Shown in pieces: positions 2,324-36,505 of a stretch of 43,646 bases of DNA; the first letter of the stretch is position 1; each line of letters opens with the position of its first letter. The notes beneath the pieces were generated by a model, which was given only the letters and a program-made list of their open reading frames with translations, had not been told where the DNA came from and made no database searches. The stretch is from Fibrobacterota bacterium (GTDB lineage: Bacteria; Fibrobacterota; Chitinivibrionia; Chitinivibrionales; FEN-1185), in contig PLWQ01000029.1 in the NCBI GenBank assembly GCA_003165595.1, positions 1 through 43,646 on the forward strand, written 5' to 3'. Both the position numbers and the translations under genes were made by a program.

Positions 2324-3055
2324 TTATTTTGCGACGGAATTCGCTTCGTCCAGCAGCCTGCAGCCTTCCATGAGGAGCACGGTGGTGACGGTGGAGATGC
2401 GCGGTTGCTCGGTGATTTCTTCCAGGGAGTTGAACGAAAACGTCCCGCGGTTGCATTTGAGCGCCTCAAAAACCGCGTTCTCGTCGACCTGGGCGCCGAA
2501 CTTGCCCGTGGTTACCTGGCCGCTGTCAAAAGTAAATGTACCGTTACCGATGTCTGTTGTGAGAGTGAGAACGCCGGTCTTTCGCGCGTATTCGAGCATT
2601 TGGAACAGCTCTACGGCATACAGGTGTTCCAGATCGCCGGAAATGGCCGCCTGCTCGGCCGCCGATTTAAGGGCCGCGATATCGATTATTTCGGTCGCTT
2701 CAAGGTGGACGCGCGAACTCAGCTCCTTGAATTCCTTCTTTACTATTGCCGGATCGTCCACGAACCGCGACGTGAACACGCACGAAGCAAGGCGAATCTT
2801 GTCCCAGTTCGCAAGCGGCCGCGCGTCCATGGGACGCAGCCGGTGACCGTTGACATAGGTGCCGTTCGAACTGCCAAGATCCGATACCGCATACGTCTGG
2901 GACCCGTCGATGTACTCTATCTGCGCATGAAAACGGCTCACACGCGGTTCGGTAAGGATCAGCGAGTTGGTATCCGCGCGGCCGATGGTCGCCTTCCCTT
3001 GTGCGGGAATGAGAAGGGGGTGCTCGGGATATCGTACGAGAAACAGGTTTGTCAT
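2324..3055 (-). CDS. FHA domain protein with C-terminal DUF4388 (PatA-like) domain
   Basis: The N-terminal half is a forkhead-associated domain, a phosphothreonine reader: GKATIGRADTNSLIL, then VSRFHAQIEY and GSSNGTYVNG. The C-terminal half (about residues 140-240: AVELFQMLEYARKTGVLTL, then FDSGQVTTGKFG) is DUF4388, found in regulators that relay signals to two-component or gliding systems. I chose ATG 3055 because the upstream extension is not FHA-like and MTNLFLVRYP begins the first strand. The gene is divergent from the GreA-like gene. No kinase is adjacent; an unlinked Ser/Thr kinase is the expected partner. Confidence 0.85.
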   Translation of the reverse strand: MTNLFLVRYPEHPLLIPAQGKATIGRADTNSLILTEPRVSRFHAQIEYIDGSQTYAVSDLGSSNGTYVNGHRLRPMDARPLANWDKIRLASCVFTSRFVDDPAIVKKEFKELSSRVHLEATEIIDIAALKSAAEQAAISGDLEHLYAVELFQMLEYARKTGVLTLTTDIGNGTFTFDSGQVTTGKFGAQVDENAVFEALKCNRGTFSFNSLEEITEQPRISTVTTVLLMEGCRLLDEANSVAK

Positions 3056-16785: not shown

Positions 16786-16928
16786 CATGTAATTTGAGAG
16801 GAACTTTTGTTGGTAAAGCTGCTCCAACTTTGAGCATCAATAATAAGTTATGAGGATCGCTTAATAAGCCGATACAAATAATAGTCGGTTCGGTCAATGC
16901 AACAACCACTTGGTTCAGGGACGCGGTG

Positions 16929-18263
16929 ATGCACATCATCAAGAATATCAGGCTCCACCAGAATGTCGATGGGGGCCAGAATCTGCTGCTTGAGGGATGC
17001 GGGAGTACCGTTGTCGAGCTCGTGGGGCTCACCAGGTTTGCGCGCGTGGCGCTTGGCAGCAAGCCCCTCACCATTCTCTATTTTCCATTCCGCATTGGGC
17101 GGCTTTCCCGGACCGATTTATCGAGTTCCGCCAAGCAGGATCTTTTGCTGCCCGACAACCAGCCGTACTCCATTTCGAGAAACCATGTCGTGTTTGAGAG
17201 AGAGAACGGAAAGGTGTTTCTCGTCGACCTCGACAGCAGTTGCGGGACCATTGTCGACAACATTGCCATCGGCCAAAAAGATCGCGGCGAAGGCCGCGTC
17301 GAGCTCTCCTGCGGCCAGCACACAATAGCCATAGGCGGGGCAGATTCCCCGTTCCTGTTTCAGGCAACGGTGCGCACAATGAAACCGGCTGATTCGCTCG
17401 CTATCGACAACGATATTCCCGACAAGTTTCCCCAGGCTCGGATGCTGTACGCAAAGCTCTGCCAGTACGAGCAGAACCTTCTTAACAACAGAGAACTCTC
17501 TCCGCAGGAGCGCGGCATGGCCGCCGAGGGCATGGTGCGCGTTATCGTAAGCAGACCCGATCTTCTCGAATTGCTGCAGCGCCTGGCCTCCAATCCGGTG
17601 TCGGGCAGCGACTATCTTGCGCAACACTCCGTGAACGTAACGATTTTTTCCATTGTCCTGTTCAAGAATCTGGAATACCCCCAGGACGACATGGTGAAGA
17701 TCGCGGCAGCCACCCTGCTCCACGACATCGGCATGCAGGACATAGACCGTGCCGTGTTTCTCAAGAACACTACATTGACGGCAGAGGAATATGGCGTCAT
17801 CAAACGCCACACCGAGATCGGCGGCGAACTCCTGCGCTGTTCCGACGACGTGTGCTCGGTGGCCGCCGCGCTCGCGCGCGACCATCACGAGAGAATAGAC
17901 AAGAGCGGGTATCCGCGCGGAATCAACATCCTTTCGGACGTCACGCGGTTCGTGGGAATCCTCGATTGCTATGAGGCAATAACCCACGACCGTCCCCAGC
18001 GCCCGGCTTTTTTGCCGCCCGAGGCCATGCGCATCCTCGCGGCGAGCAACAATACCGCCTTCGATCCCGGAACGCGCAAGGCCTTTGTCAACGTGTTCTC
18101 GTTTTACCCGGTGTCGAGCGTCGTGAAGCTTGACACGGGCGAAATAGGGCAGGTGGTGGGCGTCACGCAGGGGCAGCCGCTCGCACCCACGGTGCGCATC
18201 CTCACGGCCGCCGACGGAACCCCGGATGTCGAGCAGCGGTTGGTTGACCTCAGCAGATTATAA
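16929..18263 (+). CDS. FHA domain fused to HD-GYP cyclic-di-GMP phosphodiesterase
   Basis: The N-terminal ~150 residues hold a forkhead-associated phosphothreonine-binding domain (FRIGRLSRTD, then YSISRNHVVF and LDSSCGTIVDN). The C-terminal domain is HD-GYP. It has His265-Asp266 in LLHDIGMQDI, a second metal His in VIKRHTEIGGELL, ARDHHERIDKSGYP (GYP signature kept, although DGSGYP reads DKSGYP) and GILDCYEAITHDRPQR. With the metal ligands present, hydrolysis of c-di-GMP is likely, gated by phosphopeptide binding. The start is ATG 16929 with CAGGG 8 bases upstream; the codon before it is a GTG. It is transcribed alone from the consensus promoter. Its 3' end faces glgC across a structured repeat. 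Confidence 0.9.
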   Translation: MHIIKNIRLHQNVDGGQNLLLEGCGSTVVELVGLTRFARVALGSKPLTILYFPFRIGRLSRTDLSSSAKQDLLLPDNQPYSISRNHVVFERENGKVFLVDLDSSCGTIVDNIAIGQKDRGEGRVELSCGQHTIAIGGADSPFLFQATVRTMKPADSLAIDNDIPDKFPQARMLYAKLCQYEQNLLNNRELSPQERGMAAEGMVRVIVSRPDLLELLQRLASNPVSGSDYLAQHSVNVTIFSIVLFKNLEYPQDDMVKIAAATLLHDIGMQDIDRAVFLKNTTLTAEEYGVIKRHTEIGGELLRCSDDVCSVAAALARDHHERIDKSGYPRGINILSDVTRFVGILDCYEAITHDRPQRPAFLPPEAMRILAASNNTAFDPGTRKAFVNVFSFYPVSSVVKLDTGEIGQVVGVTQGQPLAPTVRILTAADGTPDVEQRLVDLSRL

Positions 18264-33068: not shown

Positions 33069-34610
33069 CTACTTTTTTCCCTTTGCCGAATCCGCACTCG
33101 CCTTGTCCTTTGCGTCTCTCACCGCCTGAAGGCCGTCGAGCGCATCATCGTTCTTGGGGTCAAGCTTCAAAACATACATATACTTGTTGAGCGCTTCGTC
33201 GTAGGACCCCAGATTCACATAGGTTTGTGCGGTCTTGAGGGCCTCATCGATTCTTGCCTGTTTCTGTTCTGCAGTGAGCGCACCTGCTCTCGGCGCCTTT
33301 GGTGCGTTTGTTAATGCGGCGGCGGGCTCTTTCGGCAAAGTCCTGGCTTCAAGAGTGTCTTTGGCAGGGGCGAAAGGCTTTTCCACCGCCGGCGGGGCAG
33401 CAGGAGTCGCGGGAACGGGCGCACTGGCAACGGGCGACGTCTCGATGATACTTACCGGTGCGGGCCGGGTTTGGCTTACGATAATGAGCGTGAGTCCCAC
33501 GGAGATGATCGCAACGGGAACCGAGACCAAAATGGAAACCAGCAGGACTTTGGCCATGGGGAATCCGGGTTGAAATGACTCGTGACGAATTCTTGTTCCG
33601 CAATTGGAACAGAAGTTCGCGACCCCCGCGTTCCGGCTGGAGCATTTTGGGCAGATTATGCCTTGGCTGCGCGGAACCGCGTCGATCTCTTTCGGCTGGC
33701 GGCGGGGAAGATCTTCCTGCATAACTGCCGGCATCGACACCTCGGTATCCTTCTCTCTTTCGTGTGAAACAGGCGGTTCGGGCGCCGGCGCAGGCGATGT
33801 GCCGGGGTGTGCCACCGAAGGCGCGGGGGGTTCGGCTTTCTTTTCCACCTGAGCCGGCCGCGCGCCGGCGGGCTGCGCTGGAGCAACGATGGCGGTGTCG
33901 GTCTTGTCGTCCCGCAGCACCGCGGTTTCGCGCATTTCAACATTGGGCGAAGAAGACGCGGAATCATCCGCTATGGTAATTTGTTCGGTGCCGGTGTCCA
34001 CGATAATTCCCTCGGTCCTCCGGCCGTCTTCGGGACGCGGGGTGTCGTCGGGCTCCTGTTCCTGGATTATAACGTCGGACCCCGGCGCGTCGACGTGCAT
34101 CTGCTCGGGTTCCTTGTACCTGAGGTCGGCTTTCGACAGCGGCAGCATCGAGGTGTTCCTGTCGGCCCATTTCGCCGCTTCGGCATTGATGGGGGTGCGC
34201 GTATCGTATTTCTGAAACGCGATCATTTCCCCGATTGTCACAACCAGATCGGCAAGCGTGACGCCCGGCTTCCAGTATTCCTTAATATCAATTTGGTCGT
34301 CGGAAATATTGGGGTGGAACAGCGCCGTTACCCGCTTGCACAGCGGGGCTGCGTCCGGATATTTCGGGGGAAGGGCGATTTCCACGACGTGTTCGTTCTT
34401 CACCTCGATGGTGTTCTTGATCTTTTCCAGCCCGTCAATTCGATAGAGAAAGTGATATTTCTCGGGCGGCGCGCCGAACACTTCCCTGATGGCGATGAAG
34501 GGGTGGGTCTTGAACAGCTCGGTGACGCGTTTGTAATCGGACAGGAGCTGGCTGGTGCGGTCCAGGTTTTTCCTGGCGTCGAGAACGTTCTTCTTCCTGA
34601 AGAGTGCCAT
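33069..34610 (-). CDS. E2/UBC-like domain fused to zinc ribbon, membrane helix and TPR
   Basis: Residues ~25-150 look like a ubiquitin-conjugating enzyme (E2/UBC, RWD-like) fold. The E2 order is kept: HVVEIALPPKYPDAAPL (like the YPFKPP strand), the HPN tripeptide at 99-101 in LFHPNISDD, a W-x-P-x-x-T loop (YWKPGVTLADL) and the PINAEAAKWADRN helix (like LNPEAA). The catalytic Cys site (IC in E2s) is Asp108 in QIDIKEY, so ligation chemistry is not expected. Then come a disordered Pro/Glu-rich linker, a zinc ribbon (Cys320, 323, 334, 337), one membrane helix (about 352-378) and TPR-like repeats near the C-terminus. GGGAG lies 9-10 bases before ATG 34610. It stands alone behind its own promoter. 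The role is unknown; binding of a Ub-like or peptide ligand is inferred. Confidence 0.75.
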   Translation of the reverse strand: MALFRKKNVLDARKNLDRTSQLLSDYKRVTELFKTHPFIAIREVFGAPPEKYHFLYRIDGLEKIKNTIEVKNEHVVEIALPPKYPDAAPLCKRVTALFHPNISDDQIDIKEYWKPGVTLADLVVTIGEMIAFQKYDTRTPINAEAAKWADRNTSMLPLSKADLRYKEPEQMHVDAPGSDVIIQEQEPDDTPRPEDGRRTEGIIVDTGTEQITIADDSASSSPNVEMRETAVLRDDKTDTAIVAPAQPAGARPAQVEKKAEPPAPSVAHPGTSPAPAPEPPVSHEREKDTEVSMPAVMQEDLPRRQPKEIDAVPRSQGIICPKCSSRNAGVANFCSNCGTRIRHESFQPGFPMAKVLLVSILVSVPVAIISVGLTLIIVSQTRPAPVSIIETSPVASAPVPATPAAPPAVEKPFAPAKDTLEARTLPKEPAAALTNAPKAPRAGALTAEQKQARIDEALKTAQTYVNLGSYDEALNKYMYVLKLDPKNDDALDGLQAVRDAKDKASADSAKGKK

Positions 34611-34647: not shown

Positions 34648-34676
34648 ACTATATCGTAGCGCGCCGTATTTGTCAA
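34648..34676 (-). promoter_or_regulatory. Sigma-70 promoter of the E2-like gene
   Basis: On the minus strand TTGACA (34676-34671), 17 bases and TATAGT (34653-34648) are close to consensus. The predicted start near 34641 leaves a leader of about 30 bases. Confidence 0.8.
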
Positions 34677-34689
34677 ATTTAGCGGGTAC

Positions 34690-34726
34690 AAAAAGGGAAC
34701 GCCGGACAGTGCCGCCCGGCGTTCCC
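34690..34726 (-). terminator. Intrinsic terminator of the earP-efp operon
   Basis: On the minus strand a perfect 11-bp stem (GGGAACGCCGG/CCGGCGTTCCC) with a 10-base loop is followed by TTTTT, 20 bases past the efp stop. It isolates the operon from the E2-like gene. Confidence 0.88.
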
Positions 34727-34746: not shown

Positions 34747-35304
34747 TTAGGCGCGGGAGACGAAGTCGCCGTTGCGGGTGTCGATGCGGATCACGTCTCC
34801 CTCGTTGATGTAAAGCGGCACCTGCAATTCGTATCCGGTCTCCGTCTTGGCCGTCTTCATGACCTTCCCGCCGGTGTCGCCGCGGACGGCGGGCTCGGCG
34901 TAGGTGATCTTTGATTCGATGTTTATGGGCAACTCCACGCCGACGGCCCGTGCACCGTACAGCACGACGTCGATGCTCATTTGTTCCTTGAGAAAGTTGA
35001 GCGCGTCGCCGAGATCGTCCTTGGTAAGGTCCATCTGCTCGAAATTTTCCTGGTCCATGAATGTGTAAAAGTCGCCGGAAGAATACAAAAACTGCATTTT
35101 CCTACGTTCGAGCACGATGTCCTCGAACTTGTCGGACGCCTTGTGCACCGCTTCCGCGATCGAGCCGGTTTCGAGGTTTTTGAGTTTCATTTTTACCATG
35201 GAAGCGTTGCGCGCGCCCTTGTTGTAGCTGAACTTTGTCACGAGAAATAGATCGTTTCCTATTTTGAGGGTGTTGCCTACCCTCAGGTCTTGTGCCTCTC
35301 TCAC
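34747..35304 (-). CDS. efp: Translation elongation factor P, Arg32 type
   Basis: EF-P relieves ribosome stalling at polyproline. The 185-aa protein shows the three-domain order: KOW-like N-domain (LRVGNTLKIGNDLFLVTKF), FMDQENFEQMDL in the middle domain and the signature ITYAEPAVRGDTGGKVMKT, ending DTRNGDFVSRA. The tip loop reads YNKGARNASMVKMKLKNL with Arg32, like the EF-P of Neisseria and Pseudomonas that is rhamnosylated by EarP, not the Lys34 of E. coli. GTG start at 35304 with GGAGG 8 bases upstream. It follows earP by 22 bases, so enzyme and substrate are made from one message. Confidence 0.95.
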   Translation of the reverse strand: MREAQDLRVGNTLKIGNDLFLVTKFSYNKGARNASMVKMKLKNLETGSIAEAVHKASDKFEDIVLERRKMQFLYSSGDFYTFMDQENFEQMDLTKDDLGDALNFLKEQMSIDVVLYGARAVGVELPINIESKITYAEPAVRGDTGGKVMKTAKTETGYELQVPLYINEGDVIRIDTRNGDFVSRA

Positions 35305-35326
35305 CTGAACATCCTCCGTTAATGTA

Positions 35327-36505
35327 CTATGAAATCTCGGAAAGAAAATCCGAGAATTTTTTCACCAGGTTGCAATTGCGGGTCATAAAATAACTCATTT
35401 CTCTTGTCGAACGCTCAACTTTTTTCAAGTCCTTGAAGAAGCAATCGAAATGCTCACCCGTGGCTTGCTCCTCCGACTCTTCTCCGCAATCGTTGAACGA
35501 CTTCAGGAGTTCCCTGTACCTGTCGAACACGAGACTGTCGCCAAAGTATTGGGCAAAAGCGGTGCAGAGGGCATCTACCTTGACCAGATGGTAGCGCTTC
35601 TCCTGAACATAGGCGCTCCAGATAAAGGGCTTGCCCGCAAGGATTGCGCGCACAAGGGAGTCTTCGCCCCGCACAAAGTTGAAGTCCGAAACGCACAGAA
35701 GCTCGTCGAACCGCTGTTGCGGCACAAAGGGCATGAACAGGACAAAGGCGGCGCCAAACCGGAACTGTGATTCACCGAGCATTTCTCCGTTGAGCCGCTG
35801 CAGGGTGGCACGCATTCCCTGTTGCGCCTTTTCTCCGCACACGAAAAGAAACGACCGTTTGCCGGCATTCTGCACATCCCGCAAAAGGGTGTCGAACCCG
35901 CGCGAATAGGTGAAGACCGTGCCCAGCAGGCAGTCGCCGGTCGCAGCGCCACCCAGGCCGAACGGCTCCAGAAACCCGTTTGCGTAGTCTGTGCGATGCG
36001 CGGCTATGTCGGGCTTGAGCTGTTCCACACGGGTATCGATTATGACGCCGCCGGTATTCTTTGTAAATCCAGGCATGTAGAAATACTTGCGGGGTCCAAA
36101 GCCGCTCCACAGCGATTGCCGCTTGTGGTAGCCGTCAACCCACGATTCAGCCGAGAGATATTCGAGGTTGATCCAGGCGCGGGCCCGGGGCAGCAGCAGC
36201 TCCCGGTACGGTTCGGGAATGTCGCAGCCGAACGCTTCCACGACGATATCCGCGGCGCCAAGTTGACCAACAGACGGCGCGAGCGCTCGTGAATCCACAA
36301 TGGTGAGGCCGCGAAGTTCCTGAAGGGGCCTGAGCACGTCGATTCCCGGGCACATGGCCGCAAGCGGTGCGAGGTCGTCGCACAGGATTCGTACCCGGCA
36401 AAGCGGATGGGCGAGGAGGAACTCCTTTGCAAAACGGTAGACTACTCCCGCATCGCCGAAATTGTCGACCACATGGCACACGATGTCGATACTTGAGAAG
36501 CGCAT
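35327..36505 (-). CDS. earP: EF-P arginine rhamnosyltransferase EarP
   Basis: EarP uses dTDP-rhamnose to modify Arg32 of EF-P. The 392-aa protein (family length ~380) has Asp14 and Asp18 in VVDNFGDAGVVYR, which match the catalytic Asp pair near the N-terminus. It also has ADIVVEAFGCDIPEPY, AWINLEYLSAESW, and the nucleotide-binding VRGEDSLVRAILAGKPF (Arg279, Glu281, Asp282). The operon with an Arg32-type efp directly downstream confirms the call. The ATG ribosome binding site is weak. EarP is best known from beta- and gammaproteobacteria, so its presence here is phylogenetically notable. Confidence 0.92.
   Translation of the reverse strand: MRFSSIDIVCHVVDNFGDAGVVYRFAKEFLLAHPLCRVRILCDDLAPLAAMCPGIDVLRPLQELRGLTIVDSRALAPSVGQLGAADIVVEAFGCDIPEPYRELLLPRARAWINLEYLSAESWVDGYHKRQSLWSGFGPRKYFYMPGFTKNTGGVIIDTRVEQLKPDIAAHRTDYANGFLEPFGLGGAATGDCLLGTVFTYSRGFDTLLRDVQNAGKRSFLFVCGEKAQQGMRATLQRLNGEMLGESQFRFGAAFVLFMPFVPQQRFDELLCVSDFNFVRGEDSLVRAILAGKPFIWSAYVQEKRYHLVKVDALCTAFAQYFGDSLVFDRYRELLKSFNDCGEESEEQATGEHFDCFFKDLKKVERSTREMSYFMTRNCNLVKKFSDFLSEIS

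Follow-up and report, generated by a model that had tools for sequence, protein, structure and literature searches.

Among the models considered for how ubiquitin signalling arose are the gene clusters for ubiquitin-like conjugation in bacteria. The window analysed here, a stretch of 43,646 nucleotides of Fibrobacterota DNA, encodes on its minus strand (ATG at 34610, stop at 33069) a protein that an earlier, sequence-only reading had described as an E2-like domain lacking the catalytic cysteine and joined to a zinc ribbon, one membrane helix and TPR helices, with neither E1 nor JAB gene beside it. The locus raises the question of what an E2 domain is kept for when both its catalytic residue and its pathway appear to be missing.

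Results

The window protein has an E2 fold with aspartate at the catalytic position

Pfam UQ_con matched residues 74-152 of the protein, hereafter the pseudo-E2, with 34.5 bits against a curated cut-off of 27 (E 1.8e-8). Phmmer searches of the PDB with the pseudo-E2 matched E2s (best 3e-6), and the profile of its E2 family reached PDB E2s at 1e-10. The AlphaFold2 model of the E2 domain, obtained with 41 aligned homologues, had a pLDDT of 92.5; the PDB matches listed by Foldseek for this model were E2s (best 3e-7), and VIA-align superposed it on UBE2S with a Z of 14.1 and an rmsd of 2.8 over 129 residues. Given these AlphaFold2, Foldseek and VIA-align results, the UBC fold is a high-confidence prediction for the N-terminal domain. 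The sequence-only reading would have been overturned by a missing UBC match or a fold other than that of an E2, and neither outcome was seen with UQ_con, AlphaFold, Foldseek or VIA-align. No match to the Pfam models UEV, RWD or Prok-E2 was listed at E values of 10 or less, and the pseudo-E2 is the sole UQ_con match in its genome, which shows no second E2.

YPDAAP (residues 84-89), HPN, W113 and NAEAAKWA (142-149) were all present and, as had been proposed, the catalytic Cys was absent, its site being occupied by Asp108; of the features of an active E2, the HPN motif is thus retained and the Cys is not. When every fetched copy of the family was aligned by profile, this position was Cys in 107 of the 111 readable copies (HPNI....ICIGDHW), the four exceptions being Asp in L011 (genome G002) and, in Planctomycetota, Tyr in L129 and His in L135 and L137. 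The window pseudo-E2 and both copies from genome G001 were aligned apart from the 111, and each carries Asp at the site. The four Asp-type copies (the window's, two in G001 and one in G002) all come from one Fibrobacterota family, the other three sharing 45-64% identity with that of the window. All four keep Asp108, HPN and W113, while the Gly-Asp-His that follows the Cys of their relatives is now variable. They form one clade (support 100/98 and 100/99) with long branches and an unsettled exact placement; the Cys-bearing E2 of L086 in G029, a genome of the same order, lies inside a gene cluster and falls on another well supported branch. From the loss of the Cys we infer that the pseudo-E2 cannot form an E2~Ubl thioester and conjugates nothing any more.

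The remainder of the described layout was also borne out by Pfam (both matches below cut-off), hydropathy and the model (Table 1). The zinc ribbon (CPKC...CSNC) matched Zn_Ribbon_1 at 1.7e-5 over residues 320-340, just below the curated cut-off, and its four Cys ligands are kept in all four Asp-type proteins. TPR_11 matched at 1.3e-4, below its curated cut-off, over one motif plus a capping helix whose helices are confident in the model (pLDDT about 90). The same stretch is similar to part of Amuc_1098, a type IV pilus secretin of NCBIfam, at 6.4e-8, a match well short of that family's cut-off and only a hint toward an envelope partner. Lys and Arg are commoner N-terminal of the membrane helix than after it in three of the four Asp-type proteins, with a tie in the fourth, and these charge counts suggest that the E2 domain and zinc ribbon are cytosolic and the TPR outside. 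The TPR is not essential to the pseudo-E2 type, since the second G001 copy stops after the membrane helix.

Against the G001 orthologue, the zinc ribbon had a dN/dS of about 0.11, the TPR about 0.14 and the E2 domain about 0.21, compared with about 0.26-0.54 for the linkers and membrane helix; these ratios are rough because dS exceeded 1 everywhere. At the codon level, they show the E2 fold and the TPR to be conserved against drift.

Table 1. Features of the pseudo-E2 locus and of a possible partner gene, in window positions
Feature	Position	Strand	Evidence
Pseudo-E2 gene P0001, 513 aa	33069..34610	-	ORF and translation; kept in G001 (two copies) and G002
UBC/E2-fold domain, residues 18-163	34122..34559	-	Pfam UQ_con, AlphaFold, Foldseek/VIA
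HPN motif, residues 99-101	34308..34316	-	Invariant across family alignment
Asp108 codon (catalytic Cys position)	34287..34289	-	Family alignment
Zinc ribbon CxxC...CxxC, residues 320-337	33600..33653	-	Pfam Zn_Ribbon_1
Single transmembrane helix, residues 352-380	33471..33557	-	Hydropathy peak 2.76; helix in model
C-terminal TPR helices, residues 447-510, predicted periplasmic	33081..33272	-	Pfam TPR_11, model
Promoter-like TTGACA-17-TATAGT of pseudo-E2 gene	34648..34676	-	11/12 consensus matches; consensus match only
Terminator-like hairpin after EF-P, before pseudo-E2 gene	34695..34726	-	14-pair stem then TTTTT
FHA-DUF4388 gene, possible functional partner	2327..3052	-	Pfam FHA 5.6e-19, DUF4388 3.3e-16

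The parent family bears Cys and is clustered with conjugation genes

A single-sequence scan of species-genome contigs returned no relatives of the pseudo-E2; scanning 84,980 species genomes with an alignment recovered the family, at 79 loci, mostly of Planctomycetota and also of Riflebacteria, Acidobacteriota, Verrucomicrobiota, Bacteroidota and others. By tblastn, these relatives are 34-50% identical to the window's E2 domain and homologous over its whole length. Among 61 near genomes, clear relatives were present only in G001 (two copies), G002 and G029, a weak match in G008 proving to be an unrelated protein; viral contigs yielded none.

The E2 genes recur in the order YukD-type Ub-like protein, ThiF E1, JAB, FHA, RING and E2, often with a small membrane protein (DUF2752-like, by eye). 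Upstream sequence exceeded 7 kb at 37 loci; JAB was found at 30 of these, RING at 31, E1 at 29 and the Ub-like gene at 26. The Ub-like protein, of 90 residues, ends in or near ITAG; the JAB protein has a membrane helix, the FHA protein is a membrane protein, and the RING protein combines a zinc ribbon with membrane helices. Our literature search returned nothing on this E2 family; operons of this kind are reported from Planctomycetes and Acidobacteria in a passage of PMC4197634 citing Burroughs, Iyer and Aravind 2011. Sequence comparison thus shows the pseudo-E2 to descend from a Cys-type bacterial E2 family that is usually clustered with Ub-like, E1, JAB, FHA and RING genes.

Pathway partners were not found where the Cys is missing

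Tblastn with five cluster proteins detected no pathway gene in the window, in line with the earlier statement that neither E1 nor JAB lies beside the gene. At the genome level, the JAB and RING queries matched G029 at 1e-159 and 1e-94, respectively. The JAB query had no match in the window genome (G000), G001 or G002, in which the RING query gave nothing beyond chance-level fragments and the membrane-FHA query ordinary FHA domains only. The E1-like matches read in these three genomes, which were weaker and did not include L103 of the window genome, resemble MoeB, ThiF and TcdA types. The family's YukD-type Ub-like query had no match at E up to 1 in any of the three or in G029, where the contig breaks off within the E1 gene and truncates the cluster; the same query recovered the gene in two of three control genomes. 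The genomes are drafts, that of the window being 98% complete.

Forty genomes were tested for JAB, 34 of which had the Cys site of their E2 read. JAB was present in none of the six with a Cys-less E2, versus 25 of the 28 with a Cys-bearing one, a tally uncorrected for kinship in which, by the tree, the six Cys-less genomes stand for no fewer than two independent losses and perhaps three. Fisher's p of 2e-5 took in the six further genomes with an unread E2 and is not relied on. Three Cys-bearing genomes (G061, G221 and G304) also lack a detectable JAB, so the loss of the Cys and that of the pathway are not perfectly tied.

Cys-less orphans are also found in Planctomycetota

Three Planctomycetota loci (L150:7868-8542, L151:8578-9291 and L152:8174-8887) encode E2s in which the Cys is replaced by Tyr or His. 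These proteins of 225-238 residues end in a Zn_ribbon_4/5 and have no membrane helix apparent in their sequence and no TPR; they are orphans without pathway neighbours, in genomes in which no JAB was found. They branch inside a Cys-bearing Planctomycetota group, far from the window's clade. Judged from the tree, Cys-less orphan E2s arose in Planctomycetota separately from the Asp types of Fibrobacterota.

Neighbouring genes and a possible partner

The neighbours of the pseudo-E2 gene are EF-P, EarP and, by eye, a metallo-beta-lactamase-fold hydrolase and a TPR membrane protein; no conserved operon partner and no poly-Ub-like or JAB-E1 gene, adjoining or fused, was found among them. EF-P and EarP lie upstream, beyond the strong terminator-like hairpin, which together with the separate promoter-like site between rules them out as operon partners. 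The G001 orthologue, moreover, lies directly beside the metallo-hydrolase gene, with no EF-P or EarP between; that gene and the window's 557-residue gene are still its neighbours. The EF-P/EarP pair (34747-36505, minus strand) sets an EF-P gene beside the gene for the EF-P rhamnosyltransferase (Pfam EarP 3.5e-90).

About 100 bases downstream of the second G001 pseudo-E2, on the same strand, lies an FHA-DUF4388 gene (L091:11365-12159) to which the window's own FHA-DUF4388 gene is 54% identical. Its product is a possible cytosolic partner and the sole lead to one, through a link that comes from one genome, the window's FHA gene being about 30 kb from the pseudo-E2. PADLOC gave no anti-phage defence match for the E2s. 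A separate window gene (16926-18260, plus strand) encodes a protein in which, by eye, an FHA domain precedes one of HD-GYP type.

Discussion

With the Cys of the pseudo-E2 lost, and apparently the partner genes of its pathway too, the fold was probably retained as a binding scaffold rather than as an enzyme. The reading we favour, with some reserve, is that of a membrane-anchored pseudo-E2 which outlasted its pathway and serves as a non-covalent docking module at the inner membrane. Its E2 surface would dock proteins on the cytosolic face, possibly the FHA-DUF4388 protein; the single helix would hold it in the inner membrane, the zinc ribbon would add another contact in the cytosol, and the TPR would extend into the periplasm and bind an envelope protein.

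The sequence-only reading had instead seen a UEV-like reader of a Ub-like protein, for which our searches gave no support. Such a reader, of the UEV or RWD kind, would bind non-covalently a Ub-like protein that escaped detection, or a MoaD/ThiS beta-grasp sulfur carrier, and bring it to the membrane. The E2 fold and its HPN are intact, and the proposed Ub-binding inactive domains of Iyer 2006 (PMC1779556) offer a precedent; we nonetheless consider it unlikely, given that the family's Ub-like protein was found in none of the three genomes of the Fibrobacterota family (with the control at two of three), that the window genome has no second E2 and that the UEV, RWD and Prok-E2 models went unmatched. 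Catalysis could also have changed rather than disappeared. That Asp108 serves a new, non-conjugating activity would fit the way it is held constant across the four Asp types amid varying neighbours in the active site, and is very unlikely all the same: only four sequences speak for it, no other candidate catalytic residues are seen, and the Planctomycetota orphans have Tyr or His at the site. It is scarcely credible that C91, in the YPxxPxC strand, carries the thioester instead. C91 is invariant in the Asp-type copies, but it is nearly so in the Cys-bearing members too, and as a family-wide residue it was ruled out as a replacement for the lost Cys; nor was a Ub-like protein found to charge it.

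A leftover gene decaying without function would be expected to be an orphan without a pathway, as the pseudo-E2 is, yet this explanation is highly improbable in view of the purifying selection on the E2 domain and TPR and of the retention of the gene in three genomes, in two copies in one of them, with the E2 domain free of frame breaks.

Returning to the membrane-anchored docking module, how new is its arrangement? The E2s of the clusters of YukD-type Ub-like, ThiF E1, JAB, membrane FHA and Prok-RING genes have a homologous E2 domain, and many also have zinc ribbons; they keep the Cys (ICIGDHW) and usually lie beside pathway genes, whereas the pseudo-E2 carries Asp, is anchored in the membrane and comes without pathway genes. 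The Sumerlaeota E2 of L068 unites in one chain the E2 domain, a zinc-ribbon-like motif, TPR-like helices (motif and helices both unconfirmed by Pfam) and membrane helices, but its Cys is present, the full cluster is at its locus and two membrane helices follow the repeats. The Planctomycetota orphans resemble the pseudo-E2 in lacking the Cys, pathway neighbours and a JAB in the genome and in having a zinc ribbon, and differ in their site residue, their lack of an apparent membrane helix and of TPR, and their tree branch. The claim of a new arrangement therefore holds in part: the combination of E2 and zinc ribbon is already known and common in Cys-bearing relatives, and a lost Cys combined with a single membrane anchor, seen only in this Fibrobacterota family, is new.

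Eukaryotic UEVs such as Tsg101 and Mms2 bind ubiquitin, Mms2 pairing with an active E2, and likewise have a non-catalytic E2 fold, but neither a second E2 nor the family's Ub-like protein was found in the window genome. The inactive E2/RWD-like domains of bacterial poly-Ub-like operons, for which Ub binding has been proposed (Iyer 2006, PMC1779556, row 6e), are also UBC folds without Cys; they adjoin or are fused with poly-Ub-like proteins and JAB-E1 genes, unlike the pseudo-E2, which has no Prok-E2 or RWD match.

Dead E2s appear to have outlived their pathway at least twice, with different residues at the Cys site. More tentatively, and rather doubtfully as yet, this may be a recurrent fate, in which pathway-less bacterial E2s are kept as dead zinc-ribbon scaffolds and one has become a trans-membrane adaptor from a cytosolic partner, perhaps FHA and phospho-threonine, to a periplasmic TPR. 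If true, it would be a bacterial parallel of the move that gave eukaryotic UEV and RWD domains, and pseudo-E2s would offer naturally occurring cases in which to study what such a surface can do once catalysis is gone.

The Cys-type family itself includes further variants. At L012, L013 and L018, a Cys-bearing E2 is fused to arrays of Cys-rich zinc-finger-like motifs, possibly its own E3-like part. One E2 branch (L040:1284-1766 and L078:906-1346) has the active site VCTSDFH in place of ICIGDHW, and the E2 of L081:10001-10438 has an in-frame stop just past the active-site stretch (GDH*AAG), for which a sequencing error, a pseudogene or recoding are possible alternatives. A Rifleibacterium cluster carries, between RING and E2, a further gene (L024:8604-9992) that by eye encodes a second RING-like, membrane and trypsin-like protease protein.
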